From: Pedobacter glucosidilyticus DSM 23534
GTDB lineage: Bacteria > Bacteroidota > Bacteroidia > Sphingobacteriales > Sphingobacteriaceae
Direction: 5' to 3'
Assembly (NCBI RefSeq): GCF_000425145.1
Contig: NZ_KE384312.1
Span: 62,001-126,000 of the forward strand
DNA: 64,000 bases
Shown here: positions 4,689 through 26,944 of the stretch, piece after piece
Numbering within the stretch: the first letter of the stretch is position 1
Layout of the letters: every line of letters starts with the position of its first letter
Notes under the pieces: generated by a model
Seen by the model: the letters and a program-made list of their open reading frames with translations, nothing else
Told to the model about the DNA's origin: nothing
Databases searched by the model: none
Program-made: the position numbers and the translations under genes

Positions 4689-4724
4689 AAGACGATAGGC
4701 CTGAGAATCTATCGTCTTTTTTTA
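4689..4724 (+). terminator. Rho-independent terminator after CE8 gene
   Basis: A perfect 10-bp stem, AAGACGATAG (4689-4698) pairing with CTATCGTCTT (4709-4718), encloses a 10-base loop and runs into a T tract. It closes the PL1-PL1-CE12-CE12-CE8 operon. Confidence 0.88.
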
Positions 4725-4743: not shown

Positions 4744-4813
4744 TTCCCGGCAACGATTGCACAGATTTATTTGTCTAAATGCCTGTTTTTCAATAAAAAA
4801 CTTAGTAGAATTG
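4744..4813 (+). promoter_or_regulatory. Promoter with upstream CCGG(C/T)A(A/T)CGATTGCA element, copy 1
   Basis: The element TTCCCGGCAACGATTGCACA (4744-4763) lies 52 bp (counted from its central CG) upstream of a Bacteroidota-type -7 box TAGAATTG (4806-4813). Two other operons in the window have the same element at the same distance. The -33 region is poor, which fits activator-dependent transcription. It serves the T9SS protein starting at 4930. The rest of the 286-bp gap holds a small palindrome GCTCTAAGAGC (4873-4883) and two copies of TAACCAATTAA (4816-4826 and 4899-4909). Confidence 0.6.
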
Positions 4814-4929
4814 AATAACCAATTAAATAAATCTAAACTTAAAATCATTTTAGTAAAGCCAATTTACATGATGCTCTAAGAGCTTAGATTTTTAAGATTA
4901 ACCAATTAATAAATTTTAATTTCTAGATT

Positions 4930-6159
4930 ATGATTAAAAAATTACTTTATTCTTTTGTCGTAGTTGTTTTATTTACGGCTAAGGTTTTCTCTCAATCACC
5001 TGCATCAGCTGTATGGCAGCCAGCTAGTGGCAGTAATATTCCAGGTAATGTAGTTACTACAGGTGATATACAAGCTAATGAGCAAGCGGGCACAATGGAA
5101 GCTTTTACTTATTCTACCTCAGTGACAGCTGTAAATGATGCTACTGGCTGGCAAAGGACAAGGTCATCTGCAACAGCACCAGGATTACCTTTTGGTAATG
5201 TTTATGATCCAAATTTTTATCTAGAATATCGAGTTAAGCCTGCAACAGGCAAGTATCTTAGAGTAACAGATTTAAGTTTATCAGTATTAGGTGGAGGTAC
5301 CGGGAATTGCCGTGTTTTAGTTAAGTATTCAAAAGATGGTACTAACTTCTCAAATATGCCTGTTTCTGGTTCATATTTCTTGGTTGAGGGTACTGCGGTA
5401 TCTTACGCTGCCACAGAAACAGAGCCTGTTGTTCTTATTAATACAGGTGGTACAGCATTGCCAGAAAGTAAGCGTAGATTGTCTTTTACTGGGATCAATA
5501 TCAATTTAGACTTAGATGAAACTTTCTATGTAAGATTATATCCTTATTTAACGGATTTAACTGCCGGGTCTACAAGATATTTAATGAGTAGACAAATGGT
5601 TATTTCAGCATTATCAAGTACTACTACTCTACCTTTAGACTTCCTTTCTTTCTCTGCTAAACCATCAACTTTTGGAAGTGTTGATTTAGATTGGAAAACA
5701 ACCAATGAGGTAAATACCAAAAATTTCGAAGTTCAAAGCAGAACAGCTAACTCGGAATTTAAAACCATAGGTTTTGTGGATAGTAAAAACACTGCTGGAG
5801 TTCATAATTATTCTTTTACAGATAGCAAGCCTCTAGCATCTACTGTGTATTACAGAATAAAGCAAGTAGATAAGGATGGCGAATTTGATTATAGTGATGT
5901 TAAATCGGTTAATCTTAAACAAGATATTTCATTAGCAGTATATCCTAACCCTGTAAGTGATGTATTAAGTGTTAAACACCCAACTTCTGTAAATCGTGTA
6001 ACTATAATCAATTTAGAGGGTAAAAAATTGTTAGAAAAAACAGTTGCTAATGATACTATTTCTACGGATATAAATGTGGCAAGTTTACAAGTTGGTACTT
6101 ATATCGTTGTAGTAGATACTAATGGAGAACAATCTTCGACAAAGTTTATTAAAAAATAG
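4930..6159 (+). CDS. Secreted protein with T9SS sorting domain; shares N-terminal module with the large CE8
   Basis: This 409-residue protein has a Sec signal peptide (cut after VFSQ, near residue 22) and a type A T9SS C-terminal domain (about 330-409, with VYPNPVSD and a final KFIKK), so it is exported across the outer membrane. Residues about 22-230 resemble the N-terminus of the multi-domain CE8 protein encoded from 8053: both have TGWQR, a Y(L/V)EY strand, a LGGGT turn and a ST(T/G)RY segment near the end. A fibronectin-like linker (LDWKTTNEVNTKNFEV) precedes the sorting domain. No catalytic motif is recognisable. I infer a carbohydrate-binding or accessory role in pectin breakdown; its function is not known to me. 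Confidence 0.8.
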   Translation: MIKKLLYSFVVVVLFTAKVFSQSPASAVWQPASGSNIPGNVVTTGDIQANEQAGTMEAFTYSTSVTAVNDATGWQRTRSSATAPGLPFGNVYDPNFYLEYRVKPATGKYLRVTDLSLSVLGGGTGNCRVLVKYSKDGTNFSNMPVSGSYFLVEGTAVSYAATETEPVVLINTGGTALPESKRRLSFTGININLDLDETFYVRLYPYLTDLTAGSTRYLMSRQMVISALSSTTTLPLDFLSFSAKPSTFGSVDLDWKTTNEVNTKNFEVQSRTANSEFKTIGFVDSKNTAGVHNYSFTDSKPLASTVYYRIKQVDKDGEFDYSDVKSVNLKQDISLAVYPNPVSDVLSVKHPTSVNRVTIINLEGKKLLEKTVANDTISTDINVASLQVGTYIVVVDTNGEQSSTKFIKK

Positions 6160-6179
6160 CCTATTACTTCTTAACTAAG

Positions 6180-6214
6180 AAGGCATGTTTCTTATCTGAT
6201 GCATGCCTTTATTT
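6180..6214 (+). terminator. Terminator-like hairpin between T9SS genes
   Basis: AAGGCATG (6180-6187) pairs with CATGCCTT (6202-6209) across a 14-base loop, followed by TATTT. The T tract is weak, so partial attenuation between the two T9SS genes is as likely as full termination. Confidence 0.5.
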
Positions 6215-6233
6215 AGTCCGTTATTTCTTTCAA

Positions 6234-7973
6234 ATGGAAAAGTTTTACTTGTTCATATTGGTTGTTTTTTGCCTGAATGTTAAGGATTTATATGCCGCTC
6301 AATATACGGTTGGTACTGTTACAGAACTTAGAAGTGCTATTTCTGCTGTCCAAGCTGGCGATGTGATTTTATTAAACGGAGGGACTTATACGTTCACGAC
6401 AAGGTTAGAAATTAAAAATAAAAGTGGCAATGTTACACAAAAAATTACGCTTATGGCTAATCCAAGTAGTGTAACCAGACCAAAATTTGATTTCTCTGCC
6501 ATGCCAGAAAATAGTAGTAATGTTGGCGTATTGGTAGAAAATTCAAATTATTGGCACATCAAAGGAATAGATATTTTTAAAGCTGGAGATAACGGCCTAC
6601 AAATAAAGTCGTCAAATAATAATATCATAGAGTTTTGTACTTTTTCAGAATGTGCTGATTCTGGTTTACAGATTGATAATGGTTCGGCATCCAATCTCAT
6701 TCTAAATTGCGATTCTTTCTTTAATGCCGATTCTAGCCTAGAAAATGCAGACGGATTTGCTTGCAAACTAACCGCTGGTACGGGTAATATTTTTAGAGGA
6801 TGCAGGGCATGGCAAAATTTAGATGATGGCTGGGATGGTTACTTGAGAGGGGCAGATAATATCAGTACTACTTATGAAAATTGCTGGGCTTTTGATAATG
6901 GAAAACTAAAATCCGGAGCTGTTAGCGGAGGCGATGGTAACGGTTTTAAAACCGGTGGTAGTGATCTTAAAGATTTAAAGCACAACGCAGTTTTAAAAAA
7001 TTGTTTGGCTGTTGGTAATATTAGTAAAGGCTTTGATCATAACAGTAACAGAGGCGAAGTAACCTTATTTAATTGTGCTGCTACAGGTAATGCTAGTAAT
7101 ATGGGCTTTAGTAATACCAATCCTTTAAGTAAACTTACTATCAAAAATAGTTTAGTATTAGGTAGTACAGGTTCTGTAAATGCTACTGTATTAGATGTTA
7201 CCAATAACAGTTGGAATAGCAGCCCGGCAGTAAGCGTAACAGCGGCAGATTTTGCAAGTGTAGATGCAGCAGATTTAAAATTACCAAGAAAGTCAGATGG
7301 CAGTTTACCTGATATTAATTTCTTTAAACTGCTTGCAAATAGTGATTTAGTAGACAGAGGTATAGACGTGGGTTTAACTTTTTCAGGTTCTGCACCAGAT
7401 ATTGGAGCTTTTGAATATGTTGCACCTCTTCCTTTAGATTTATTGAAGTTTGAAGCACAAAGAATGATTAATCAATCAACTGTGAAATTAACATGGTTAA
7501 CTACGAATGAGGTAAATACAAAAGATTTTGAAGTTCTTAGAAGAGGCGATGATACTCCTTTTGTTAAAATTCATACCCAAACAGCAAAAAATACTTCAGG
7601 TATCCATTATTATGAGTTTATAGATAAAAATCCACCGTTAGGAAAAGCGTACTATCAGCTTAAGCAAAATGATAAAGATGGAAAGTTTACTTTAAGTGAT
7701 GTGGTTTTTGTGGCAGGATTTACATCTGCTAACATCTTTTCAATATATCCGAATCCAGTACAAGAGATAATGAATATAAAAAGTCTTGAGGAGCTAAGAG
7801 GAGTCAAAATTATATTTGAAAATCTGCTTGGGCAAAAAATATTTGAGGATACTTTAAACTTTGTAGTTGGAGAAAACCCAATAAATATTCAATACCTACC
7901 ACAGAGTATTTATACAATGTATGTCGTAAAAAATCATGATGTGCTACTGGTAAAAAAAGTAGTAAAAAAATAA
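6234..7973 (+). CDS. Pectate lyase PL9 with T9SS sorting tail
   Basis: This 579-residue secreted enzyme has a signal peptide (about 1-22), a PL9 beta-helix domain (about 23-395), a short linker and a T9SS type A tail (about 500-579, with IYPNPVQE). PL9 features by comparison with Pel9A are ENADGF with Asp173, LDDGWD with Asp197, Asp198 and Asp201 (calcium site), and GNGFKTGG with Lys239 at the position of the Pel9A catalytic base Lys273. It should cleave polygalacturonate endolytically at the cell surface or outside the cell. A shorter paralog lacking the T9SS tail is encoded from 13580, suggesting one surface and one periplasmic version of the same activity. Confidence 0.92.
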   Translation: MEKFYLFILVVFCLNVKDLYAAQYTVGTVTELRSAISAVQAGDVILLNGGTYTFTTRLEIKNKSGNVTQKITLMANPSSVTRPKFDFSAMPENSSNVGVLVENSNYWHIKGIDIFKAGDNGLQIKSSNNNIIEFCTFSECADSGLQIDNGSASNLILNCDSFFNADSSLENADGFACKLTAGTGNIFRGCRAWQNLDDGWDGYLRGADNISTTYENCWAFDNGKLKSGAVSGGDGNGFKTGGSDLKDLKHNAVLKNCLAVGNISKGFDHNSNRGEVTLFNCAATGNASNMGFSNTNPLSKLTIKNSLVLGSTGSVNATVLDVTNNSWNSSPAVSVTAADFASVDAADLKLPRKSDGSLPDINFFKLLANSDLVDRGIDVGLTFSGSAPDIGAFEYVAPLPLDLLKFEAQRMINQSTVKLTWLTTNEVNTKDFEVLRRGDDTPFVKIHTQTAKNTSGIHYYEFIDKNPPLGKAYYQLKQNDKDGKFTLSDVVFVAGFTSANIFSIYPNPVQEIMNIKSLEELRGVKIIFENLLGQKIFEDTLNFVVGENPINIQYLPQSIYTMYVVKNHDVLLVKKVVKK

Positions 7974-8052
7974 CAATCAAGCTTGATTTCATGACTCGCT
8001 CTATTACTAGCGGACAAGATAATCAGGAGCAAAATCAATTAAACCTAATTTT

Positions 8053-11000
8053 ATGAAAAGAATAATTTACGCAATTTTTCTATCTATTTTAGTAGTTTCT
8101 AGTGCGGCAGCGCAAAGCGTTACTGCTACTTGGTCGCTATTAACCAATACTTCCGGATCAGTTTCAGCGGGAGGATTAACATTAAGTAACCAAAACTTAG
8201 GAAGTGCTATATCTGGTGTTCAATATGGCTCTACTTTTGGAACTGTAACAGGATGGCAAAGGGTTGCCTCAACTGTAACTTTACCTACTAGTTATCAAGC
8301 AAATTCATATGTTGAATATGCAGTTACAGTACCTGCAGGTAAAAAAATCACGATTAGTAATATTAATTTTAGTGCATTAGGAGGTGGAACAAGCGGTGCA
8401 AGAATGGCTGTTTTTTACTCTTTAAATGGTTTTCTAAACTCATCTTCTGCTGGGGCTATAAGTTATAATAATACAAGTTATGCTAATGATACAGGAGCTG
8501 GAGCAGTAAGTTTATTAAATACAAGTACAACCCCTCTTACAGGGCAAGAGGTCGCTAACATAAACACAAATATAGAAGTAGGTCAAAACAAAACGTTTAC
8601 CATAAGAATTTATGTATGGGCAGGTTCAACAGGTAGATATTTTACCTCTAAAGATTTTAAGTTAACAGGAGTTATAGCAGATGACACTACACCTGTTTTA
8701 CCTCGTTATACCGTTAACACAATAGTTAATAATAATGGTGCGGGTACAGTTATTAAAACTCCCAACAGTACTGATTATGAACAAGGTTCTTCTCTTAGTA
8801 TACAAGCAGTAGCCAATTTTGGTTATAGATTTGTAAAATGGATTAATACGGATAACAATGCAGATTTATCTACAGCCAATCCGTATGTATTCACAGTTAA
8901 TGCCTCACAAAATATTACAGCTGTTTTTGAGACTCTCACTACATACAGTTTTACTCTTAATAAAATTGGTTCTAACTGGGGTGAAGTTAATTTATCTCCA
9001 GCCCCAACAAATGGAAGATATGTTGAAGGTACAGAAGTAACCATGACAGTTATTCCTAATCGGGTAACTAGTTTTAGCTATTGGGATGATAATTCTACAG
9101 CATTACAAAAAATTATAACTATTAATTCTGATAAAACTTTTACAGCAACTTTTGATGAAATTCCTTTTATTGTTGGCTGGGATTTTAAAGCAGAGAACCC
9201 TAAAATTAATCGTACTGGAGATTTTTACTCAGAGTCTAGTAATACCGGGTTGATAGCTATATATGAGCCAAATGGTACAGCTGTTAACTGGTTATCAAAT
9301 ACGGGTTCTTTTTCTCCTGCCTATCCTAATCTAAGATTTTGGACAGCTGGCACAAGTTTTAACACAACCAGAAGATATCTCAAAGCTCAATTTGCTACAA
9401 CTGGTTATAAAAATATTCAGGTAAAATCTATGATTACGGCTAATTACCAAGCCTATTCTGTACAAAAACTACAATATTCTTTAGATGATATTAGCTATAC
9501 AGATGTTGCAAGTGTCGATATCACAAGCGTTTACAATACAGCTTGGAAAGACTTAAATGTTACTTTACCTGTTGCAGCAGAAGGACAAGCTAGGGTTTAT
9601 TTAAAATGGATTGCTGATACTTCTAGCCCTATTTTAGGAAATTCAACAGATAATGATGGGACGGCATTTACCAATATTTTTGTTTTTGCAGATAAAGAAA
9701 TTGTAAACGATACAGATGCGCCTTTATTAATATCAACTGTGCCTGTATCATCTTCAAGCACAGCAACCATCAATGGGTCTATAGTACTTACTTTTAATGA
9801 GAAAGTTAAATTAGGTACTGGTAATATTACACTTGGAAGTACTGTATTAACACCGGTTTTTGGGTCTAAAACAGCAACTTTTGCTTACGAAAAACTAAAT
9901 TATAACACTTCATATACTTTTACAGTTCCAGCTGGAGCTTTAACAGATATGTCTGGTAATCCTTATGCTGGCACAAACATTACTTTTACAACAGCTAGCC
10001 GTACACAACCAACAAGAAAATTATTTGATGCCGTTGTTGCAAAAGATGGTTCTGGTGATTATACCTCAGTAATTGATGCTATTGCTGCTGCTCCAACATC
10101 CAGAACTACACCTTGGGTAATTTTCATTAAAAATGGTAAATATACTGGTCATCATGATATCCCAACCAATAAACCTTTTATACACTTAATAGGCCAAAGC
10201 AGAAATGGAGTTATCATCTCTGATAATAGATTATCTGGCGCAAATAACATCGGTGCAACGGTATATCATGTAAGTCAAGGTGCAACCATGGTTGTAAATT
10301 CAAAAGATTGCTATTTCGAGAATATTATTTTTGAAAACAGTTATGGTTTCGAGACGCAAGCAGGGCCACAAGCTTTAGCTTTATATACCACAACAGATAA
10401 GTTTGCAATGAATAATTGCTACTTAAGAAGCTATCAAGATACTTATTTAACTGCCTACAGCAGCATTGCTGATAGACATTACATCAAAAACTCTAGAATA
10501 GAAGGTGCTGTAGATTTTATTTATGGTGGTGGCGATGTGTTTTTTGATAAAGATACTTTAACCATGACGCGAAAAGACGGCGGATATATTGTAGCACCAA
10601 GTCATGGCAATGGTACAGCTTGGGGTTATGTATTTAGTAATTGTGTAATTAATGAATCAGTTGTAACTGGTGCTACATCTTACTTTGGCAGGCCTTGGCA
10701 AAATGCCCCTAAAACAGTTTTTATCAATACCAAACTATTAACCGGCATTTATGCAGCAGGTTGGTATTATAAAATGGGTGCTATTCCGGCTGTGTTTGCA
10801 GACTATAATACGGTTAACGCCCAAGGTAATCCGGTAGATTTAAGTCAGCGTATTTCTAATTACGAGTACGATGTGAAAGATGCAAATGGTAACGTAACCA
10901 GTACAGTAACTGGTGTGGCTAAAAAATCTTTAACTGATACAGAGGCTGCAAGTTATACCTATGAAAATGTGATTCTTAGAAGTGGTGATGTTTGGGATCC

Positions 11001-11781
11001 TAGGTTAATAGCCGAAGCTCCAGATAAGCCTGCAAATTTGCAACGTAGTGGTAATACCCTGTCATGGAATGATGTACCTTATACGCGTTTGTATGTAATT
11101 ACTAGAAATAATAATGTGATAGGATTTTCACTAACCAATAGTTTTACAGATAATACGGCTGTTAGTAATACCAATTATACTTATACAGTGCAGGCAGCAA
11201 GCGAGTATGGCGCTTTAAGTCTAGCTTCTACGCCATATCAAACTTTACCTCTTAAACTTTTAAGCTTTCAAGCACAAGCTGTAAGACAAGGTAAAGAGGT
11301 TGCTTTAAAATGGACTACTACACAAGAAATTAATACCGCAAGTTTTGATATAGAAAGAAGTGTTGATGGACAGGTGTTTAACAAGATTGGTAATATAAAA
11401 GCACAAAATAAGAGTGGTAATTTAAATTATCAATTTACTGATTTCTCACCTCTTAAAGGTGTTAGTTATTACCGCTTAAAACAAATAGATTTAGATGCAA
11501 AGTTTGAATATAGTCCTATAGAAGCGGTTGATATTACAAATAATCAGATTATTATTTACCCTAATCCAGTAAGTTCTGAGTTAGCTATCTCTCATTTAGG
11601 AGCAAAAGCAGTTGGCAAGCTTAGTATCTTTAATAGTTTAGGTAAAGAGGTTTTAAAAATTGATGGACTGAAATCAGAAAATCAAACTAAAGTTGATGTT
11701 TCTACACTTCAATCTGGTGTTTATTTCATCCAACTCTATATCGGTAAAGAAATATTTACAAGTAAATTTATCAAACAATAA
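8053..11781 (+). CDS. Multi-domain pectin methylesterase CE8 with T9SS tail
   Basis: This is a 1242-residue secreted, probably surface-anchored, pectinesterase. Domains in order are: signal peptide (1-20); a module shared with the protein from 4930 (about 21-210); two InlB-type beta repeats ending in TAVFE and TATFD (about 218-370); an uncharacterised beta-sandwich (about 372-548); a Big_5-like domain (about 555-648); CE8 catalytic helix (about 655-985); a fibronectin-like linker (about 990-1065); and a T9SS type A tail (about 1165-1242). CE8 residues are present: SYQDT with Asp796, DFIYG with nucleophile Asp821, and FGRPW with Arg880/Trp882. The many accessory domains suggest binding to insoluble cell-wall pectin. 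It is the terminal gene of its unit; a strong hairpin follows. Confidence 0.92.
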   Translation: MKRIIYAIFLSILVVSSAAAQSVTATWSLLTNTSGSVSAGGLTLSNQNLGSAISGVQYGSTFGTVTGWQRVASTVTLPTSYQANSYVEYAVTVPAGKKITISNINFSALGGGTSGARMAVFYSLNGFLNSSSAGAISYNNTSYANDTGAGAVSLLNTSTTPLTGQEVANINTNIEVGQNKTFTIRIYVWAGSTGRYFTSKDFKLTGVIADDTTPVLPRYTVNTIVNNNGAGTVIKTPNSTDYEQGSSLSIQAVANFGYRFVKWINTDNNADLSTANPYVFTVNASQNITAVFETLTTYSFTLNKIGSNWGEVNLSPAPTNGRYVEGTEVTMTVIPNRVTSFSYWDDNSTALQKIITINSDKTFTATFDEIPFIVGWDFKAENPKINRTGDFYSESSNTGLIAIYEPNGTAVNWLSNTGSFSPAYPNLRFWTAGTSFNTTRRYLKAQFATTGYKNIQVKSMITANYQAYSVQKLQYSLDDISYTDVASVDITSVYNTAWKDLNVTLPVAAEGQARVYLKWIADTSSPILGNSTDNDGTAFTNIFVFADKEIVNDTDAPLLISTVPVSSSSTATINGSIVLTFNEKVKLGTGNITLGSTVLTPVFGSKTATFAYEKLNYNTSYTFTVPAGALTDMSGNPYAGTNITFTTASRTQPTRKLFDAVVAKDGSGDYTSVIDAIAAAPTSRTTPWVIFIKNGKYTGHHDIPTNKPFIHLIGQSRNGVIISDNRLSGANNIGATVYHVSQGATMVVNSKDCYFENIIFENSYGFETQAGPQALALYTTTDKFAMNNCYLRSYQDTYLTAYSSIADRHYIKNSRIEGAVDFIYGGGDVFFDKDTLTMTRKDGGYIVAPSHGNGTAWGYVFSNCVINESVVTGATSYFGRPWQNAPKTVFINTKLLTGIYAAGWYYKMGAIPAVFADYNTVNAQGNPVDLSQRISNYEYDVKDANGNVTSTVTGVAKKSLTDTEAASYTYENVILRSGDVWDPRLIAEAPDKPANLQRSGNTLSWNDVPYTRLYVITRNNNVIGFSLTNSFTDNTAVSNTNYTYTVQAASEYGALSLASTPYQTLPLKLLSFQAQAVRQGKEVALKWTTTQEINTASFDIERSVDGQVFNKIGNIKAQNKSGNLNYQFTDFSPLKGVSYYRLKQIDLDAKFEYSPIEAVDITNNQIIIYPNPVSSELAISHLGAKAVGKLSIFNSLGKEVLKIDGLKSENQTKVDVSTLQSGVYFIQLYIGKEIFTSKFIKQ

Positions 11782-11797
11782 AGAATAAGCTTTAATC

Positions 11798-11832
11798 AAG
11801 GGTTTAGGTTTATGAACTTAAACCCTTTTTTT
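11798..11832 (+). terminator. Rho-independent terminator after multi-domain CE8
   Basis: AAGGGTTTA (11798-11806) pairs perfectly with TAAACCCTT (11819-11827) and runs directly into seven T residues. Confidence 0.9.
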
Positions 11833-11850
11833 CATTTTATGCGTTTAGCA

Positions 11851-11919
11851 TATCCGGTATCGATTGCATAGTTTATCTGGCAGAAGTTCCAACATCTTGA
11901 ATTTTTTTATGTAGAATTG
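11851..11919 (+). promoter_or_regulatory. Promoter with upstream CCGG(C/T)A(A/T)CGATTGCA element, copy 2
   Basis: The element TATCCGGTATCGATTGCATA (11851-11870) sits 51 bp upstream (central CG to box start) of the -7 box TAGAATTG (11912-11919), the same box and nearly the same spacing as copy 1. It leads into the GH43-PL9-CE8 transcription unit beginning at 11946. Confidence 0.6.
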
Positions 11920-11945
11920 CAGAAGAAGCCAATTTTATAATCATC

Positions 11946-13580
11946 ATGAATAAACATTTTCTTAAAAGCTTATTACTATCTGTAGCTTACTTTTCTGTTC
12001 AAACCATTTCTGCTCAGGAATATGTTTCAAAAGTTTGGGTGGCCGATTTAGGCAATGGGAAATATAAAAATCCCGTTTTAAATGCTGATTATTCAGACCC
12101 TGATGCTATCCGCGTAGGCGATGATTTTTATATGATTTCATCAAGCTTTAACCATATACCGGGTTTGCCTTTATTACACTCTAAAGATTTGGTAAACTGG
12201 ACTATCCTTACGCATGTTCTACCAAAGCAAATTCCGGCAGAAACTTTTAAGAAAGTTCAACATGGTAATGGTGTTTGGGCACCAGCTATACGTTTTCATA
12301 AAAACGAGTATTATATTTATTATCCAGACCCAGATTTTGGAATTTATGTAACCAAAGCCAGTAACCCAGCTGGTCCGTGGTCTACACCAGAATTAATTTA
12401 TGAGGGCAAAGGTTTAATAGATCCTTGTCCGCTTTGGGATGAAGATGGTAAAACTTATCTCGTACATGCTTATGCAGGCAGCAGGGCAGGTATTAAAAGC
12501 GTCATAGCCATTGCGCCTATGAACCAAGAAGGTACCAAAGTAACCGGGCAAAGTGTAATTGTTTATGATGGGCATGAGGATGACCCAACCATAGAAGGGC
12601 CTAAGTTTTATAAAAGAAACGGTTATTACTACATATTTGCTCCGGCAGGGGGTGTGCCAACAGGTTGGCAATTAATCTTGAGGTCTAAAAATATTTATGG
12701 CCCTTATGAACGTAAGAATGTTCTAGACCAAGGCAAAAGCCCAATTAATGGTCCACACCAAGGCGCTTGGGTTGATACCCAAACAGGTGAAGATTGGTTT
12801 CTACATTTTCAAGACAAAGAAGCTTATGGCAGGGTAGTACACCTACAACCCATGAAATGGGTAAAAGACTGGCCAGTTATTGGTGAAGATAAAGATGGCG
12901 ATGGAAAAGGCGAACCTGTTTTGGTTTATAAAAAGCCAAATGTTGGTAAAAATTGGCCTGTGCAAACACCAGCCGAGTCTGATGATTTTAATAGCCCAAT
13001 TTTAGGTAAGCAATGGCAATGGCAGGCAAATGCAGATGGTACATGGGCTTTTGCAGGTAACAAGGGTAATTTAAGGTTGTATACCAAACAAATACCTGCA
13101 GAAGCAAAAAGTTTATGGGATGTACCTAACATTTTAGGGCAGAAATTTCCTGCCGATAATTTTCAAGTAACAACAAAAATCACCTTTACCCCAAATGATA
13201 AGTTAGAAAATGAAAAAGTTGGCTTAATCATCCTAGGGCAAGATTACAGCACCCTATTCCTAAAAAGCAAAAAGGATGGTATTTATTTAGGATATGGTTT
13301 ATGTAAAGGAGCTGTAAAAGGTAAAGAAGAAGTGGAAAGCATCATCAGTAAAATAGATACTAAAACGGTGTATTTCAGAGTTCAAGTGAGTAATGGCGGT
13401 ATTTGTAAATGGTTTTACAGTACAGATAATAAGAAGTTTTTACCTATTGCAGAGCCTTTTACTGCATTGCCAGGTAAATGGGTAGGTGCTAAAGTTGGAC
13501 TTTACGCTGTTAGAAACACACAAATTAATGATTCTGGCTATGCCGATGTAGATTGGTTTCATGTAGAGCCTATTAAATAA
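11946..13580 (+). CDS. Glycoside hydrolase GH43, two-domain
   Basis: This 544-residue exported enzyme has a signal peptide (1-24), an N-terminal five-bladed propeller (about 38-335) and a C-terminal beta-sandwich (about 345-544) of the kind that accompanies many beta-xylosidase or arabinofuranosidase members. The acidic triad is visible: Asp51 in YSDPDA (general base), Asp159 in LIDPCP (pKa modulator) and Glu217 in TIEGPK (general acid). In a pectin cluster it probably removes arabinose or xylose from side chains, or galacturonate-linked xylose, but the sequence does not fix the substrate. Its stop overlaps the ATG of the next PL9 gene by one base (TAATG). Confidence 0.9.
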   Translation: MNKHFLKSLLLSVAYFSVQTISAQEYVSKVWVADLGNGKYKNPVLNADYSDPDAIRVGDDFYMISSSFNHIPGLPLLHSKDLVNWTILTHVLPKQIPAETFKKVQHGNGVWAPAIRFHKNEYYIYYPDPDFGIYVTKASNPAGPWSTPELIYEGKGLIDPCPLWDEDGKTYLVHAYAGSRAGIKSVIAIAPMNQEGTKVTGQSVIVYDGHEDDPTIEGPKFYKRNGYYYIFAPAGGVPTGWQLILRSKNIYGPYERKNVLDQGKSPINGPHQGAWVDTQTGEDWFLHFQDKEAYGRVVHLQPMKWVKDWPVIGEDKDGDGKGEPVLVYKKPNVGKNWPVQTPAESDDFNSPILGKQWQWQANADGTWAFAGNKGNLRLYTKQIPAEAKSLWDVPNILGQKFPADNFQVTTKITFTPNDKLENEKVGLIILGQDYSTLFLKSKKDGIYLGYGLCKGAVKGKEEVESIISKIDTKTVYFRVQVSNGGICKWFYSTDNKKFLPIAEPFTALPGKWVGAKVGLYAVRNTQINDSGYADVDWFHVEPIK

Positions 13581-14650
13581 TGAAAAGAATGAGATATTTT
13601 TTAAGTGTAGTTTTACTCTTGTTGAGTATCGCCTTAAAGGCACAAATTAAGGTAAATAATGTTGCAGAAATTTTGGCTGCTGTAAAAGTTGCTAAAGCCG
13701 GAGATATCATTTTGGTAAAAGGAGGCGAGTATAAATTTGATGTTCGTATCAACTTAAATTCCTCTGGTACGGCAGAAAAACCGATTAAATTAATGGCAGC
13801 AGATTTAGCAAATCGGCCGAAATTTGATTTTTCTGCGCAGCTAGAAGCTGATGCAAACCAAGGTATCGCTTTAAGGGGAAGTTATTGGCACCTAAAGGGT
13901 ATTGATATTTATAATGCTGGCGATAATGGCTTAATCATCAATGGTGGAAGTTATAATGTTATCGAGTTTTGTACCTTCTCAGAATGTGCCGATACGGGTT
14001 TACAAATTAGCGGTGGAGCAACTCAAAATCTTATCTTAAACTGCGATTCTTATTTCAATGCTGATGCTAAAGTAGAAAATGCTGATGGTTTTGCATGTAA
14101 ACTTGATGCCGGAACTGGTAATACTTTTAATGGTTGCAGAGCATGGCAAAATTTAGATGATGGTTGGGATGGTTACCTCAAAAAAACAGATAATATCACC
14201 ACAACTTATGAAAATTGCTGGGCTTTCCTAAATGGAATGTTAAAAGATGGTACAGCCGGTAAAGGTGATGGAAATGGCTTTAAATCTGGAGGTAGTGATG
14301 ATAAACTCCTTAAGCATCATGCTGTTTATAAAAATTGTATCGCAGCTGCTAATCTAAAAAAAGGTTTTGACCATAACAGCAATCGTGGCGAGGTAACTTT
14401 ATTAAACTGTTTAGCTTTTGATAATAAGCAAAGCAATATGGGTTTTGGTAGTAAAAATCCATTAGCAAAATTAACGATAAAAAATACTCAGGTTATAGGT
14501 GAGGTGGGCAGCTTAAATGCTGATGTAACGGATATCAGTAATAACAGTTGGCAAAAGCCTACAGCTAAGCAAAAAGTTTTAAATATTCAGGATTTGTTAA
14601 AGCCTCGTCAAGCAGATGGTAGTCTACCTCACATTTCATTTTTTGATTAA
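13580..14650 (+). CDS. Pectate lyase PL9, single-domain
   Basis: This 356-residue PL9 lyase has a signal peptide (1-22) and no T9SS tail, hence is probably periplasmic. Key residues match the longer paralog: ENADGF with Asp169, LDDGWD with Asp193, Asp194 and Asp197 for calcium, and GNGFKSGG with Lys235 as the likely base. It overlaps the GH43 stop by one base and is followed 5 bp later by a CE8 gene, so GH43-PL9-CE8 is one tight operon. It is expected to finish depolymerisation of oligogalacturonides. Confidence 0.92.
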   Translation: MKRMRYFLSVVLLLLSIALKAQIKVNNVAEILAAVKVAKAGDIILVKGGEYKFDVRINLNSSGTAEKPIKLMAADLANRPKFDFSAQLEADANQGIALRGSYWHLKGIDIYNAGDNGLIINGGSYNVIEFCTFSECADTGLQISGGATQNLILNCDSYFNADAKVENADGFACKLDAGTGNTFNGCRAWQNLDDGWDGYLKKTDNITTTYENCWAFLNGMLKDGTAGKGDGNGFKSGGSDDKLLKHHAVYKNCIAAANLKKGFDHNSNRGEVTLLNCLAFDNKQSNMGFGSKNPLAKLTIKNTQVIGEVGSLNADVTDISNNSWQKPTAKQKVLNIQDLLKPRQADGSLPHISFFD

Positions 14651-14655
14651 TTGAT

Positions 14656-15636
14656 ATGAAGTCTGTATTATCTTTTTTTCTATGTTGCTTAAGCATCACC
14701 ATTTTACAAGCGCAGCCTAAAGTTTACCCATCAAAATTTACGGTTGCACAAGATGGTAGCGGAGATTTTAAAACCATCCAAGAGGCAGTAAATGCTGTAA
14801 GAGACCATTCAGAACAGAAAGTCACCATCACCATTAAGCCAGGTATCTACAAAGAGAAATTGGTTATCCCCACATGGAAAAGAAACATCATCCTTTTAGG
14901 AGAAAATAAAGAAAACACCATCATTAGCCATGATGATTATTCTGGCAAACCCTTTCATGGAACTGATATTACCGGAAATCCAAAATTTAGCACTTATACT
15001 TCTTATACCGTTTTAATTGCAGGGAGCGATTGCGAATTACAAAATTTAACTATAGAAAACACTGCGGGACCAGTTGGCCAAGCTGTTGCGTTACACATAG
15101 AAGGCGATAGAACAGCCGTTAAAAATTGCGATATAAAAGGTCATCAAGATACTTTGTATGTAGCTAAAGATGGCGCAAGAAATTATTTTGAAAATTGTAC
15201 CATTAGCGGCACTACCGATTTTATTTTTGGTGCAGCCACAGCATGGTTTCAAAATTGTGCAATCATTAGTATCAAAGATTCTTATATTACGGCGGCTTCC
15301 ACCACCTCTCAAACAAGTTGTGGCTTTATTTTTATGAATTGTAAGTTGCTTGCCGCAGATGATCAAGTCAGAAAAGTTTTCTTAGGCAGACCATGGCGCC
15401 CTCATGCTAAAACGGTATTTATCTCCACTTTTATGGATAAACATATCAGACCAGAAGGTTGGGATAATTGGCGAGACCCTGCTAATGAAAGCACCGTTTT
15501 TTATGCAGAATATGGAAGTAGTGGACCTGGTGCTTTTGTACAGGAACGTGTGAAATGGGCACATCAAATAAAGAAGAAAGATTTAAAAACCTACACCATT
15601 AACCAAGTCTTTAAAGGATGGCAGCCTTTTAAATAA
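14656..15636 (+). CDS. Pectin methylesterase, CE8 (third in window)
   Basis: This 326-residue single-domain pectinesterase has a signal peptide (1-20). The complete CE8 set is present: GHQDT with Asp165, DFIFG with nucleophile Asp188, and FLGRPW with Arg245/Trp247. It closely resembles the 320-residue CE8 from 3681, including the GRPWRP(H/Y)AKTVF segment. Without a T9SS tail it is likely periplasmic and may act on methylated oligogalacturonides released by the surface enzymes. It is encoded directly after a PL9. Confidence 0.94.
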   Translation: MKSVLSFFLCCLSITILQAQPKVYPSKFTVAQDGSGDFKTIQEAVNAVRDHSEQKVTITIKPGIYKEKLVIPTWKRNIILLGENKENTIISHDDYSGKPFHGTDITGNPKFSTYTSYTVLIAGSDCELQNLTIENTAGPVGQAVALHIEGDRTAVKNCDIKGHQDTLYVAKDGARNYFENCTISGTTDFIFGAATAWFQNCAIISIKDSYITAASTTSQTSCGFIFMNCKLLAADDQVRKVFLGRPWRPHAKTVFISTFMDKHIRPEGWDNWRDPANESTVFYAEYGSSGPGAFVQERVKWAHQIKKKDLKTYTINQVFKGWQPFK

Positions 15637-15678
15637 GGATTCTAATGGTTAGTTTTAGAAAAATTATAAACTAACATC

Positions 15679-16500
15679 ATGAAAAAACTACTTTTTACAT
15701 TTTTGTTTTTTGTAGCCTTAAAGGCCGATGCACAGCACAAGCTAACGCAAATTTGGAAATCTGCAGATAGTATTCCGGTACCAGAATCTGTCTTGTATTC
15801 TGCTAAAGAGAAACTTTTATACGTGTCTCAGATAGATGGTGGCGGTAGCGAAAAAGATGGAAAAGGTGCTATTGGTAAGCTAACTTTAGATGGTAAAACC
15901 ATCAATTTAAACTGGGTAACTGGGCTTAACGCACCAAAAGGAATTGGCGTTTATAAAAACACCATGTACGTGGCAGATTTAACTGAAGTAGTGGTGATAG
16001 ATATGAAAGCTGCTAAAATTACCAATCGTATTACAGTACCAGAAACCGAGTTTTTAAACGATGTTACTGTAGATGATAAAGGCGTTGTTTATGTGTCTGA
16101 TACACGTAAAAGAAAGGTTTTTCGTATCGTTAATAACACTCCTGAACTTTATTTAGAAGATGTTAAAAGTGTAAACGGACTAAAAGCTATAGGTACAGAT
16201 TTATACATTTTAGCGGGTCCAGAATTGTGGAAAGCTAATGCTAAAAAAGAGCTTACTAAACTAGCAGAAGGCTTTGAATTAGGTGGCGATGGACTAGAGC
16301 CTGTTAAAGACGGAGAGTTTTTAGTTTCTTGTTGGGGAGGTCTAATTTACTACGTAACTGTAAGCGGTAAAGTAGAAAAATTACTAGATACCAGAGCCGA
16401 AAAAATTAATACTGCTGATATTGGTTACGACCCTGTAAAGCGTATCGTTTATGTTCCAACTTTTCTTAAAAATTCTGTTTTAGCTTTCAAGCTAGACTAA
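15679..16500 (+). CDS. Secreted SMP-30/gluconolactonase-like beta-propeller
   Basis: This 273-residue exported protein has a signal peptide (1-18, cut after ADA) and a six-bladed propeller of the SMP-30/NHL type. Repeating segments such as GIGVYKNTMYVADL, VDDKGVVYVSDT and GYDPVKRIVYVPTF mark individual blades. The family includes sugar lactonases, so opening of a sugar lactone is possible, but metal-binding residues cannot be assigned with confidence. It is the last gene of the GH43-PL9-CE8 unit, 42 bp after the CE8 and followed by a strong terminator. Confidence 0.75.
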   Translation: MKKLLFTFLFFVALKADAQHKLTQIWKSADSIPVPESVLYSAKEKLLYVSQIDGGGSEKDGKGAIGKLTLDGKTINLNWVTGLNAPKGIGVYKNTMYVADLTEVVVIDMKAAKITNRITVPETEFLNDVTVDDKGVVYVSDTRKRKVFRIVNNTPELYLEDVKSVNGLKAIGTDLYILAGPELWKANAKKELTKLAEGFELGGDGLEPVKDGEFLVSCWGGLIYYVTVSGKVEKLLDTRAEKINTADIGYDPVKRIVYVPTFLKNSVLAFKLD

Positions 16501-16514
16501 AATATTTTAAATAT

Positions 16515-16554
16515 TTCTCCTTTAATCTTATCTAAGATTAAAGGAGAATTTTCT
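16515..16554 (+). terminator. Rho-independent terminator after SMP-30-like gene
   Basis: A very long stem has left arm TTCTCCTTTAATCTTA (16515-16530) and right arm TAAGATTAAAGGAGAA (16533-16548). A few inner pairs must open to form the loop. A T-rich tail follows. Confidence 0.92.
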
Positions 16555-16644
16555 TATCAGAAACACAAAAGAAACTCTTCTTCTGATGAGCTTGTCTGCC
16601 CAATGTAAAATATGCTAAAGTACTCGTAATTTTTTACGCAAACC

Positions 16645-16714
16645 TTCCCGGTAACGATTGCACAAATAAATACCCCCAAATACGCATAGGCTTTACTAAA
16701 TTTCGTTAAAATTG
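16645..16714 (+). promoter_or_regulatory. Promoter with upstream CCGG(C/T)A(A/T)CGATTGCA element, copy 3
   Basis: TTCCCGGTAACGATTGCACA (16645-16664) lies 52 bp (central CG to box start) upstream of the -7 box TAAAATTG (16707-16714). It precedes the GH28-GH105-uxaB-uxaA unit. Apart from this element and the terminator to its left, the 329-bp gap between 16501 and 16829 shows nothing further. Confidence 0.6.
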
Positions 16715-16829
16715 TTGTTTAAAGGTCTAAAATCAATTATTGAAGCCTTTAAGATTCTTATAAACCTGATCAAATTTTAAATATTAGTACAATATGGAGC
16801 CAATAATTTTTGGTTATAAAATTAACGAT

Positions 16830-18542
16830 ATGATGATTAAAAGAATTAAAAGAATGATGATTTCGGGCTTAGTATTGTGTACCCTTATTTCATCATCTGT
16901 TGCGCAAGAAAATAGGCAAAAGCAAATAACAGATTCACTAGCTTTCATTAAAACTTTTAATGTTAAAATGCCTATTATAAAAACGCCTGTTTTTAAAAAA
17001 GATACTTTTGATATTGTAAAATATGGCGCTAAGCCTGATGGTGTAACGCTAAACACTAGCAGTATTAACCAAGCTATAGAGGCTTGTAGCAAAAACGGTG
17101 GAGGCATTGTTTTACTCAATGAAGGTGTTTGGCTTACTGGGCCTCTTTACCTGAAAAGCAACGTAAACTTACATTTAAGAAGTGGCGCTCTATTACTTTT
17201 TACTACAGATAAAAGCCAATATAAATTAATAGAAGGTAGCTGGGAGGGTAAACCAGCTGTGGTTAATGAAGCGCCAATATCGGGCTACAATTTAGAAAAT
17301 ATAGCTATTACCGGTGCCGGAATAATAGATGGCAATGGTGATGCTTGGAGATTTGTGAAGAAAAGTAAATTAAACGAATCTCAATGGAAAAATTTGGTTG
17401 CTTCTGGTGGTGTGGTAGATAAAGATGGTAAAAATTGGTTTCCATCCGTAAGTTATCAGAAAGGCTTCAATACTAAAGATGCTACAGTGATAAAGCCCGG
17501 TACCAAACCAGAAGATTATACAGAAATGAAAGATTTCTATCGCCCTAATTTACTGGTTTTAAACAGCTGTAAAAAAGTATTGTTAGAAGGTGTTACTTTT
17601 CAAAACTCACCAGCATGGAATCTTCATCCCTTAATGTGTCAAGATTTAACGGTAAGAAATATCCTGGTAAGAAATCCATGGTATGCACAAAATGGAGATG
17701 GTATTGATGTAGAATCTTGTAAAAATGTTCTTATAGAAGATTCTGTTTTTGACGTTGGCGATGATGGTATTTGCATTAAATCTGGCAGAGATGAAGCGGG
17801 TAGAAAAAGAGGTATGCCAACAGAAGAAGTAATTGTAAGAAATAATGTGGTTTACCATGCTCATGGAGGTTTCGTTATTGGTAGTGAGATGTCTGGTGGG
17901 GCAAGAAACCTATTTGTTTACAACAACTCTTTTATAGGTACTGATATTGGCTTACGATTTAAAACCACTCGTGGTCGTGGTGGGGTGGTGGAAAAAATCT
18001 ACATCGCCAATACCTTTATGAAAAACATCCCGGGCGATGCTATTTTGTTTGATATGTATTATGCCGCAATAGACCCAGTACCTATGGCTGGCGAGCAAAG
18101 AGCAGCACCTAAAGTAGAATTTTTACCCGTTACAGAGGCTACACCACAGTTTAAAGATTTTTACATCAAAAATGTGGTTTGTATAGGTGCAGAGAAAGGT
18201 ATTTTCATGAGGGGGATTCCAGAAATGAATATCCAAAACATCAATTTAGAAGATGTTACCATTAAATCTAAAATTGGTATCGAGTTAATTGAAGCTACTA
18301 ATATCAACCTAAAAAATATCCATTTGGTAAGTGATGTAACTAATCCTTTGATTTTAGTAGAAAATAGCAAACAAATCAACATCAGCGGTTTAAAATCAGA
18401 TACAGAAATCCAAAACTTAATAACCCTATCTGGCGATAGAACCGAGGCTGTTTCTCTTGCAGGCCCATCTGTTACCACAGCAAAAGATAAGGTGAAATTT
18501 AATTTCGGAGCAAAGCCTAAATCGCTAAAAATTAATAAATAA
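16830..18542 (+). CDS. Polygalacturonase-type glycoside hydrolase, GH28
   Basis: This is a 570-residue secreted GH28 enzyme. I place the start at ATG 16830 because the signal peptide MMIKRIKRMMISGLVLCTL begins there; an in-frame ATG at 16794 would add 12 residues of no signal character. GH28 motifs, numbered from 16830, are NGDGID (Asn288, Asp290), VGDDG (Asp311, Asp312), HGGF (His345) and RFK (Arg376, Lys378), so the active site looks complete. A loop of about 60 residues before the catalytic strands is typical of Bacteroidota exo-acting members. It probably releases galacturonate from oligogalacturonides. It is the first gene of the unit ending in uxaA, 3 bp before the GH105 gene. Confidence 0.92.
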   Translation: MMIKRIKRMMISGLVLCTLISSSVAQENRQKQITDSLAFIKTFNVKMPIIKTPVFKKDTFDIVKYGAKPDGVTLNTSSINQAIEACSKNGGGIVLLNEGVWLTGPLYLKSNVNLHLRSGALLLFTTDKSQYKLIEGSWEGKPAVVNEAPISGYNLENIAITGAGIIDGNGDAWRFVKKSKLNESQWKNLVASGGVVDKDGKNWFPSVSYQKGFNTKDATVIKPGTKPEDYTEMKDFYRPNLLVLNSCKKVLLEGVTFQNSPAWNLHPLMCQDLTVRNILVRNPWYAQNGDGIDVESCKNVLIEDSVFDVGDDGICIKSGRDEAGRKRGMPTEEVIVRNNVVYHAHGGFVIGSEMSGGARNLFVYNNSFIGTDIGLRFKTTRGRGGVVEKIYIANTFMKNIPGDAILFDMYYAAIDPVPMAGEQRAAPKVEFLPVTEATPQFKDFYIKNVVCIGAEKGIFMRGIPEMNIQNINLEDVTIKSKIGIELIEATNINLKNIHLVSDVTNPLILVENSKQINISGLKSDTEIQNLITLSGDRTEAVSLAGPSVTTAKDKVKFNFGAKPKSLKINK

Positions 18543-18545
18543 GAA

Positions 18546-20477
18546 ATGATGAAGCGTTTTATAATAGCATTTTTAGCAGGAAGTATGGGTTTAGCTTCTT
18601 GCTCTACCACTCGTCAAATTTCTTATCAGCAGAAGCCACTGGCGCAAGAACTGTCTAAAACAGTGATGCATAAATGGTCTTTTCCTATAGAAAATAATAG
18701 CAGACCATTAAAGTGGACTTATGAAACTGGCGTTTTTTTAGAAGGCATCACCAATGTTTGGAAAAGCACTGCCGATGCTACTTATTTCAACTACGTACAA
18801 CGCTGTATGGATATGTTTGTAGAAGCTGATGGAACCATCAAAACCTATAAACTATTAGATTATAATATTGACAACATCCGTACAGGAAGAGCTTTATTGA
18901 TGCTTTATCGCGTTACAGGAAAAGAGAAGTATTACAAAGCAGCAGCCCAACTAAGAAAACAATTGCAAGAGCACCCTAGAACCAAAGAGGGTAGCTATTG
19001 GCATAAGAAAATATATCCGCACCAAGTTTGGCTAGATGGTTTATACATGGGTATGCCATTTTATGCCGAGTGGGCACAACTTTTTAACGAACCAGAAGCA
19101 TTTAATGATATCGCTAACCAATTTATACATATAGAGAAAGTTGCTCGCGATCCAAAAACTGGGTTAATTTATCATGGTTGGGATGAGTCTAGAGAACAAA
19201 GATGGTCAAATAAAGAAACCGGAAATTCGCCACATTTTTGGGGACGAGCCATGGGTTGGTACGGTATGGCTATGGTTGATGTTTTAGACCATTTTCCAGT
19301 AAATCATCCCAAAAGAGAAGAAATTGTAGCTGTTTTAAATCGCTTTGCAGCAGCTATAGAAGCCTCTCAAGATAAAAAAAGCGGCTTATGGTATCAGGTG
19401 ATGAATATGCCTGATGGTAAAGGAAACTATTTAGAAGCTTCTGCCTCTTGTATGTTTGTTTATACTTTGGCAAAAGGTATTAGACTAGGTGTTTTACCAA
19501 CAAAATACGAAGCCATTGCTCAAAAAGCTTATACAGGTATCCAAAAACAATTTTTAGAGACTGATGCTGAAGGTTTTTTACACCTAAACGGTACTGTAAG
19601 TGTGGCTGGTTTAGGCGGTAAACCTTATCGTGATGGTAGTTATGAGTACTACTTAAGCGAAAAAGTAATTCAGGATGATCCTAAAGGCATGGGCGCTTTC
19701 ATCTTAGCTGCTAATGAAATGCAAACCAGAAATAATCCTCAAGTAGGCAAGGGTAAAACCGTTTTGTTAGATAATTATTTCAATAACGAGTTCCGTAAAA
19801 ATATCATTGGCCAACAAGAAAGTTTCCATTACGTATGGGATGAAATGGATAACAATGGCTTCTCTTTACTAGGGGAGCATATTACTTATACCGGAGCTAA
19901 ACTAGCAACTTTAAAAGCAGCACCAACAGCAGCTAATTTAGCTCAAGCCAACGTCTATATCATTGTAGACCCAGATACTGAGAAAGAAACCACTAATCCT
20001 AATTTTATGGATGCTTCATCAATTCAGGAAATTAAAAATTGGGTTGGCCAAGGTGGAACTTTAGTTTTGATGGCTAATGATGAAAAAAATGCCGAGCTGG
20101 ATAAGTTTAACAAGCTGGCAGAGGTTTTTGGCATTCAGTATAAAAAAGAATTAAAAAACCCGGTAACGGGCAACCAGTATGAAATGGGAGCTATACCTGT
20201 TCCTGCCGGAAATGAAATTTTTAAATCGGCCAAGAAACTATACCTAAAAGAAATTAGTACCCTTCAACTTCAATCCCCTGCAAAGGCAGTTTTAACCCAT
20301 AATAATGATGTGGTTATGGCAACTGCTAAGTATGGTAAGGGTTTGGTATTTGCCGTTGGCGACCCTTGGCTGTACAATGAATATGTAGATGGCAGAAAGC
20401 TTCCTTCGGATTTTGATAATCTTACGGCAGCTAAAGAATTATTCCACTGGTTATTAAAGCTAACATCCTCAAAATAA
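18546..20477 (+). CDS. GH105 unsaturated rhamnogalacturonyl hydrolase fused to a GATase-like domain (lipoprotein)
   Basis: This 643-residue predicted lipoprotein has lipobox GLASC with Cys19. The N-terminal (alpha/alpha)6 domain (about 35-400) is GH105: YNIDNIRTGR carries Asp109 and WLDGLYMG carries Asp164, matching the YteR catalytic pair Asp88/Asp143. The enzyme removes the 4,5-unsaturated uronic acid left by pectate and rhamnogalacturonan lyases. Residues about 412-643 form an extra alpha/beta domain (ANVYIIVDPDTE, GGTLVLMANDEKN, GKGLVFAVGDPWLYN) resembling glutamine-amidotransferase-like or DUF4350-type folds; its role is unknown. The fusion roughly doubles the usual 350-400-residue GH105 length. 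Confidence 0.9.
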   Translation: MMKRFIIAFLAGSMGLASCSTTRQISYQQKPLAQELSKTVMHKWSFPIENNSRPLKWTYETGVFLEGITNVWKSTADATYFNYVQRCMDMFVEADGTIKTYKLLDYNIDNIRTGRALLMLYRVTGKEKYYKAAAQLRKQLQEHPRTKEGSYWHKKIYPHQVWLDGLYMGMPFYAEWAQLFNEPEAFNDIANQFIHIEKVARDPKTGLIYHGWDESREQRWSNKETGNSPHFWGRAMGWYGMAMVDVLDHFPVNHPKREEIVAVLNRFAAAIEASQDKKSGLWYQVMNMPDGKGNYLEASASCMFVYTLAKGIRLGVLPTKYEAIAQKAYTGIQKQFLETDAEGFLHLNGTVSVAGLGGKPYRDGSYEYYLSEKVIQDDPKGMGAFILAANEMQTRNNPQVGKGKTVLLDNYFNNEFRKNIIGQQESFHYVWDEMDNNGFSLLGEHITYTGAKLATLKAAPTAANLAQANVYIIVDPDTEKETTNPNFMDASSIQEIKNWVGQGGTLVLMANDEKNAELDKFNKLAEVFGIQYKKELKNPVTGNQYEMGAIPVPAGNEIFKSAKKLYLKEISTLQLQSPAKAVLTHNNDVVMATAKYGKGLVFAVGDPWLYNEYVDGRKLPSDFDNLTAAKELFHWLLKLTSSK

Positions 20478-20491
20478 ACAATCTCTCAAAA

Positions 20492-22003: not shown

Positions 22004-22005
22004 CC

Positions 22006-26507: not shown

Positions 26508-26944
26508 TGGTTTAATTTTTGGTTGACACAATTATAAGTCAACACAAGGCCGCAAACAATGCCTCTAAAACCTGTTATCAGTTTGCATGTTCTTTAAAGT
26601 TAATTTAAATTTACTTTTTAATAATTACATTAAAATATTATTTATAAAGGTATTTTTTAGTAAAAATTAATTCTTTTTTAGACATAATTTTTCATTTATA
26701 TCATCGTAATCGATTTCGTAAAAACTATATAGTTTTACCCATATTTTTAATCGTTTTCTTTTGCTTCACCACGTTTAATGAAGTTATATTGCCAATAGTA
26801 CTGCATAAATTGCTAATTAGGCATAACCTAATGTTTATATTAAAAGGTAGCTTTGTTATTCATCCTAAATTATATAGAGTTTAAATTTCATCAAAAAGGT
26901 ACAACAGATGTTTTTTCTGCTTGCCTCAAACAGAGAGTTAAGTT
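26508..26944. promoter_or_regulatory. 437-bp divergent regulatory region with several palindromes
   Basis: This region separates the AraC-type gene (-) from the quinoprotein gene (+). It holds GTTGAC-N10-GTCAAC (26522-26543) just upstream of the AraC start; an LacI-like CGTAATCGATTTCG (26705-26718, core AATCGATT); a perfect 16-bp palindrome AAAACTATATAGTTTT (26721-26736); and a possible + strand promoter with TTTTGC (26759-26764) and TATATTG (26785-26791). I see no reading frame of note in it. Confidence 0.55.

Follow-up and report, generated by a model that had tools for sequence, protein, structure and literature searches.

The window analysed here, a stretch of 64,000 nucleotides from Pedobacter glucosidilyticus DSM 23534 (C3:62001-126000 of a 4.02-Mb assembly), carries three pectin transcription units, each preceded by a copy of a 20-bp element centred on CG and, further downstream, by a -7 promoter box. 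We propose that a single LacI-family regulator, P0001, uses these elements as its operators; it is encoded before the window and would activate the units from about -64. Binding, activation and effector are all predicted from sequence, and we give this reading a probability of about 0.68; as predictions, the operator sites and the regulon themselves are well supported. The elements and boxes of the window are:

4744-4763, plus strand: operator 1, TTCCCGGCAACGATTGCACA, central CG at 4754; exact core match, kept in relatives G004 and G007 with the same box
4806-4813, plus strand: -7 box 1, TAGAATTG, 52 bp from the CG of operator 1; same offset in relatives
11851-11870, plus strand: operator 2, TATCCGGTATCGATTGCATA, central CG at 11861; exact core match, kept in G004 and G007
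11912-11919, plus strand: -7 box 2, TAGAATTG, 51 bp from the CG of operator 2; kept in relatives
16645-16664, plus strand: operator 3, TTCCCGGTAACGATTGCACA, central CG at 16655; exact core match, kept in G001, G004 and G007
16707-16714, plus strand: -7 box 3, TAAAATTG, 52 bp from the CG of operator 3; kept in relatives

Positions and strands of the three elements had been given in an original prediction and were found to be correct when read directly from the sequence. The spacings stated there, measured from the central CG of each operator to the start of a TA(G/A)AATTG box, were reproduced at 52, 51 and 52 bp (4754 to 4806, 11861 to 11912 and 16655 to 16707). The accompanying consensus described a real element, but one base had been dropped as typed, leaving one mismatch at two of the three sites. 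The corrected consensus is TWYCCGGYAWCGATTGCAYA. With up to three mismatches allowed, it has three matches in the window; 100 shuffles yielded 0.10 matches on average and never more than 2. Operator and box are conserved among the three sites, and the sequence that lies between them differs. Single operators are asymmetric around the CG, with a conserved CGATTGCR half and a divergent CCGGYAW half.

The genes served by these sites, and the terminator-like hairpins returned by a hairpin scan, are arranged as follows:

4689-4718, plus strand: terminator-like hairpin ending the unit upstream of operator 1
4930-11781, plus strand: unit 1, a protein sorted by the type IX secretion system, a Pel9A-like beta-helix protein and a pectinesterase of 1242 amino acids; presumed single unit
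11798-11827, plus strand: terminator-like hairpin 3' of unit 1
11946-16500, plus strand: unit 2, a GH43 protein, a Pel9A-like lyase, a pectinesterase and an open reading frame (ORF) matching an arylesterase family; presumed single unit
16515-16548, plus strand: terminator-like hairpin 3' of unit 2
16794-23658, plus strand: unit 3, a GH28 protein, a GH88-family hydrolase, a UxaB-like and a UxaA-like protein; presumed single unit

The UxaB-like protein belongs to the mannitol-dehydrogenase family and the UxaA-like protein to the altronate dehydratase family, and their names were assigned from family and context. Terminator-like hairpins are not in excess as a total (9 in a 12.5-kb stretch, shuffle mean 7.4), and the three top-listed of the nine are those directly 5' of the three operators. 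Because a hairpin lies directly upstream of each operator, each operator appears to open a separate transcription unit. Elsewhere in the window, a 461-amino-acid ORF at 785-2170 has no Pfam match and resembles the pectate lyase PelZ with 128.9 bits, below the NCBIfam cut-off of 840.

The genome-wide scan proposed in the original prediction was carried out with a 15-base core, CCGGYAWCGATTGCR. It gave five exact matches, three of them in the window, no copy with one mismatch in the 4.02-Mb genome, and 22 copies with two. The core written backwards, used as a control, gave 18 matches when up to two mismatches were allowed and no match when the limit was one, and the 22 two-mismatch copies were therefore rejected as background. 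A sigma-70 promoter scan was uninformative (43 matches, shuffle mean 46). The fourth exact site (C3:52707) is located 9.3 kb upstream of the window, between the divergent P0001 gene and a SusC-SusD-DUF4957/DUF5123 locus that runs toward the window, and has a box, TACCATTG, at 52 bp. The fifth (C4:119686, minus strand) precedes a Gfo/Idh/MocA oxidoreductase gene; its box, TAAATTCA, is a poor match to the box pattern and again lies at 52 bp. These two sites provide an out-of-sample test of the distance, and both give exactly 52 bp. The Gfo/Idh/MocA gene stands alone, distant from the pectin locus, and its operator (C4:119670-119688, or L008 9671-9689, minus strand) is kept in G001, G003, G004 and G007.

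The gene that adjoins the fourth site is:

C3:51590-52603, minus strand: P0001, a LacI-family protein of 337 amino acids, 9.4 kb before the window

P0001 is followed on its 3' side by uxaC, a PfkB kinase, a KDPG/KHG aldolase and an MFS transporter. Its N-terminus contains a LacI-type helix-turn-helix (PF00356, E 4.1e-11, 42.9 bits for a cut-off of 27), and its ligand domain, similar to periplasmic binding proteins, exceeds the cut-offs of PF13377 and PF00532. None of the named NCBIfam LacI equivalogs (RbsR, PurR, CcpA, GalR, GntR and others, 19 families listed) was reached at cut-off; the highest score was that of RbsR, 174.8 bits against 382. The best PDB sequence matches are CcpA chains. Eight LacI-family genes are present in the genome and one of them adjoins a copy of the element. 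A recognition-helix pattern matches four of the eight, P0001 included, and the recognition helices of the other three resemble that of P0001. Nine of the 18 genomes of the genus, that of P0001 counted, encode a close relative of this protein (72-100% identity). Judged by the regulator, the nearest named relatives are a Pedobacter glucosidilyticus metagenome-assembled genome (100%) and Pedobacter puniceum (92%); related loci in named genomes number 13, two of them close. In eight of the nine genus genomes, the 4-kb locus around the P0001 relative has the core at up to one mismatch. The exception is G008, with core sites elsewhere on its chromosome.

We then turned to 39 genomes outside the genus and took from them 40 regions upstream of P0001 homologues, picked by hand for genus diversity among the matches listed; three of these regions were known beforehand to carry operator plus box beside the gene. 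The recognition helix S(T/P/A/I)ST(V/I)SRAL is found in all 40 homologues. Within 600 bp, an element pointing away from lacI is present in 33 of the 40 regions at up to two mismatches, in 27 at up to one and in 13 exactly, and one pointing toward lacI in 11, 8 and 5 regions, respectively. The reversed-letter control gave 0 of 40 at every mismatch level. This pairing, together with the divergent LacI-family gene at the fourth copy, bears out the view that the CG-centred core resembles an operator of LacI/GalR type. The identity of the binder had been left open in the original prediction, with mention of an AraC-family protein, and the evidence now favours a LacI-family protein encoded outside the window.

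Many of these operators appear to be double. A second CG lies exactly 12 bp upstream of the operator CG in 23 of the 33 lacI-side regions, and the double operators form 26-bp near-palindromes in ten regions, two of them perfect (G044 and G086). In the P. glucosidilyticus genome the susC-side double site is CGGCATCGATGCCGGCATCGATTGCG, and window operator 1 also has a second CG; the other three sites of this genome do not. LacI-family sites are known to overlap at a distance of about 13 bp (PMC4052901; statements on cited papers refer throughout to the parts of them that were available). The arrangement resembles that of E. coli GntR, where two overlapping LacI-family sites serve one control region; GntR operators are about 13 bp apart, as compared with the 12 bp seen here (PMC4052901).

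The fixed distance was examined with sites chosen on the operator alone, using the box pattern TANN(A/T/C)TTG and covering offsets from 15 to 130. In the homologue regions the box was found at 52 bp (15 sites), 53 bp (7) and 50 bp (2), and only 3 times at other offsets. A box at 50-53 bp is thus present at 24 of the 33 sites. When the downstream DNA was shuffled 1000 times, 0.22 sites on average had such a box, and never more than 3. Within the genus, 64 strand-specific sites (of 73) have the box at 52 bp in 28 cases, at 51 in 3, at 53 in 1 and elsewhere in 7, counts that are not independent since leaders are related by descent. A box at 50-53 bp accompanies 31 of the 55 sites in the nine genomes with a close homologue, and 1 of 9 sites in the other genus genomes. 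The claim of a fixed distance is therefore real and also predictive, as seen at the fourth and fifth sites and in the homologue regions.

The spacing range of a -33 element is 17-23 bp. TTG was found at this distance upstream of the box in 8 of 54 promoters, where shuffling gave a mean of 9.4, and TTTG in 4, where it gave 4.1. The promoters show no -33 element, in agreement with the weak -33 regions noted in the original prediction. The Bacteroidota housekeeping -7 box, TAnnTTTG, lies at -12 to -5 (PMC9723704), and with the boxes taken at this position the operator would be centred near -64. In none of the 24 aligned family boxes is the fifth base the consensus T, which the pattern allowed along with A and C; it is always one of the latter two. 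In all three window boxes it is A, and the TA and TTG of TAnnTTTG are kept. The ten bases 3' of the operator are 82% A/T, a raw value given without control comparison. The missing -33 element, the odd box and the A/T tract would suit a promoter that needs help, and the alpha subunit of RNA polymerase could bind the tract.

The reach of the regulon was evaluated in 399 genomes of the family. Operator plus box, as an exact pattern, was found 58 times in 34 of them (27 matches in the genus and 31 outside), and the reversed control gave 0 in the 399 genomes. A P0001 homologue at E<=1e-95 is present in 32 of the 34 positive genomes (G016 and G097 lack it), as against 261 of 399 overall; of the 261 genomes with a homologue 32 carry the pattern, and of the 138 lacking one 2 do (Fisher p 1e-4, a rough value since the genomes are related). 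This strict pattern misses variants such as CGGGAACG. A slightly looser pattern applied to 395 genomes of the class recovered the P. glucosidilyticus genome and four genomes of a second family, f36 (8 matches, control 0). All four f36 genomes have a P0001 homologue of 57-63% identity (E<=1e-60). In the other four f36 genomes sampled, one has a 59% homologue but no match and three have none above 44%, and 12 hand-picked genomes of other families have no homologue above 46% (E<=1e-60). In a set of 98 genomes, made up of one f36 genome and its relatives, 13 had matches, all in the genus of that f36 genome (control 0).

Downstream genes, defined as the first ORF of at least 100 amino acids starting with ATG, were annotated wherever a locus accompanied a match outside the genus, in 28 of 39 cases. 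Thirteen encode pectin or galacturonate enzymes and eight SusC-like receptors. Besides the eight receptors, the 28 comprise GH28 (4), UxaB-type dehydrogenase (3), Gfo/Idh (3), pectate-lyase-like proteins (3, named from sequence and having no Pfam match above cut-off), sigma factors of extracytoplasmic function (ECF) type (2), and one each of a Pel9A-like protein, a pectinesterase, a short-chain dehydrogenase, a GH2 protein and a Sde182-like protein. In genomes of the genus, a KDPG-aldolase-like gene and a gene for a KduD-like dehydrogenase are further genes preceded by the element (names from sequence, no Pfam run), in the former case as a variant, TCGGTAWCGATTGCG, in six genomes (L134, L143, L166, L173, L119 and L122). 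The original prediction that the motif joins the three units into one regulon is supported; it is a pectin and galacturonate regulon, wider than first described. The two ECF-type sigma-70 genes preceded by operator plus box belong to distant relatives (L175:1744-2349 and L252:1816-2418) and hint at a LacI-to-sigma-factor cascade in those organisms. Exact core matches within coding sequence (protein start MGADLFGSY; L160, L167, L169 and L170; G009, G014, G016 and G017) were judged a coding coincidence; they were kept in the genus site counts and excluded as regulon members.

Across the family, then, the element recurs beside the P0001 gene and before pectin genes, at a fixed distance from the box. 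We suggest that P0001 would bind as a dimer with the CG at its centre and the conserved CGATTGCR half toward the promoter, about 64 bp before the transcription start and five helical turns from the -7 box. Activation is suggested by the operator position. At promoters with a -7 box and no -33 element, bound P0001 may recruit RNA polymerase; the contact would probably be made by the C-terminal domain of the alpha subunit, placed on the A/T tract that separates operator and box. The signal would probably be an intermediate of galacturonate breakdown, a guess from the content of the regulon, and its arrival would jointly switch on SusC/SusD uptake, extracellular depolymerases and the UxaB-UxaA steps. 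CRP, for example, acts as a class I activator at -61.5. The site proposed here, about 60-64 bp before the start and free of overlap with the promoter boxes, likewise lies at a fixed distance upstream, as for a class I-type activator, and differs from that of CRP in the protein family involved and in the Bacteroidota promoter without a -35 element. Within the LacI family, CcpA of Bacillus subtilis activates from cre boxes upstream of -35 in a helix-face-dependent manner (PMC3463425). CcpA differs in being a global regulator that works with HPr-Ser-P, represses most of its targets and uses several cre positions (PMC3463425).

Several observations weigh against this reading. The uxaC-kdgK-kdgA-transporter operon adjoining the P0001 gene (L006:6086-10751) has no element in its leader, which was read base by base. 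Seven of the 40 homologue regions lack the element, 9 of the 33 sites in the other regions have no pattern-matching box at 50-53 bp, and neither do 24 of the 55 sites in the nine close-homologue genomes (chance and coding matches counted). Only 34 of 399 genomes have the exact operator-plus-box match though 261 have a homologue. G016, without a close homologue, has an element with a box at 52 bp, and G002 and G015 carry the variant before the KDPG-aldolase-like gene, also without a close homologue. Finally, most characterised LacI-family regulators are repressors.

The last point leads to the strongest competing explanation, in which the same protein acts at the same operators as a repressor, blocking an activator or the alpha-subunit contact at -64 until a uronate intermediate releases it. 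Repression is the usual mode of the LacI family, and the divergent, probably autoregulatory location of the operator beside P0001 suits a repressor. CcpA at lev provides a case of a LacI-family protein blocking an activator from an upstream site (PMC3463425). We nevertheless regard repression as rather unlikely, and favour an activator because a repressor at -64 is not expected to hold the box spacing within 1-2 bp across genera. The rigid 52-bp distance at the targets, the promoters without a -33 element, and the lack of a second conserved motif between operator and box beyond A/T-rich stretches all argue in the same direction.

It is improbable that the main reader of the element is some other protein, for instance the AraC-family regulator encoded inside the window (25614-26531, minus strand) or a paralogous LacI protein. 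The seven further LacI-family genes, among which the three found by helix pattern all resemble P0001 in the recognition helix, and the relatives that carry the element without a close homologue would fit such a reader, and paralogous LacI proteins may well read the element in addition to P0001. Against a different main reader, 33 of the 40 regions taken from outside the genus have the element next to a P0001 homologue, and a CG-centred near-palindrome fits LacI-family operators (PMC4052901). The AraC-family protein was set aside as the less likely binder, since no core copy at up to two mismatches lies near its gene and a LacI-family gene stands beside the fourth site. Chance, or common descent of duplicated leaders without function, draws on the similarity by descent of leaders in close relatives and is scarcely credible: the intervening sequence differs among the window sites between two conserved ends, the arrangement is conserved over many genera with 0 control matches, and the control counts contradict it.

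Also among the closest known systems, as compared by description, are the LacI-family uronate regulators KdgR (BT0487) and UxaR (BT0824) of Bacteroides, which Ravcheev and colleagues predicted by comparative genomics along with UxuR (PMC3878776; PMC4052901). KdgR and UxaR belong to the same phylum and are predicted to control galacturonate and glucuronate genes (PMC3878776; PMC4052901), with some proteins of the KdgR regulon being periplasmic or extracellular (PMC3878776). The available parts of these accounts state no fixed box distance and no activator role. The genome set of the LacI comparison had one Bacteroides group (PMC4052901), and no treatment of the window's family was found in the available parts of this Bacteroides work (PMC3878776; PMC4052901). 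Nor was a description of the element found in the available parts of the literature searched, which was mostly openly accessible (including PMC12125979, PMC10766802, PMC5306329, PMC12632263 and PMC9723704).

On balance we lean to the view that a LacI-family protein serves as a dedicated, locus-crossing activator of pectin use in the window's family, whose relatives are named Pedobacter, and in a second family of the class, and that a directional operator five helical turns from an imperfect TAnn(A/C)TTG box replaces the -33 element there, as a fixed promoter grammar for LacI-type activation in Bacteroidota. Bacteroidota are major degraders of plant pectin, with polysaccharide loci that are best known for control by hybrid two-component systems and ECF sigma factors. 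A grammar as compact as operator, 52 bp and TAnn(A/C)TTG would be predictive and allow the pectin regulon to be read out in unstudied relatives. It would also offer a clean system for two questions: how activators serve promoters in which the -33 element is missing, and whether activation can be the sole function of a LacI-type protein.

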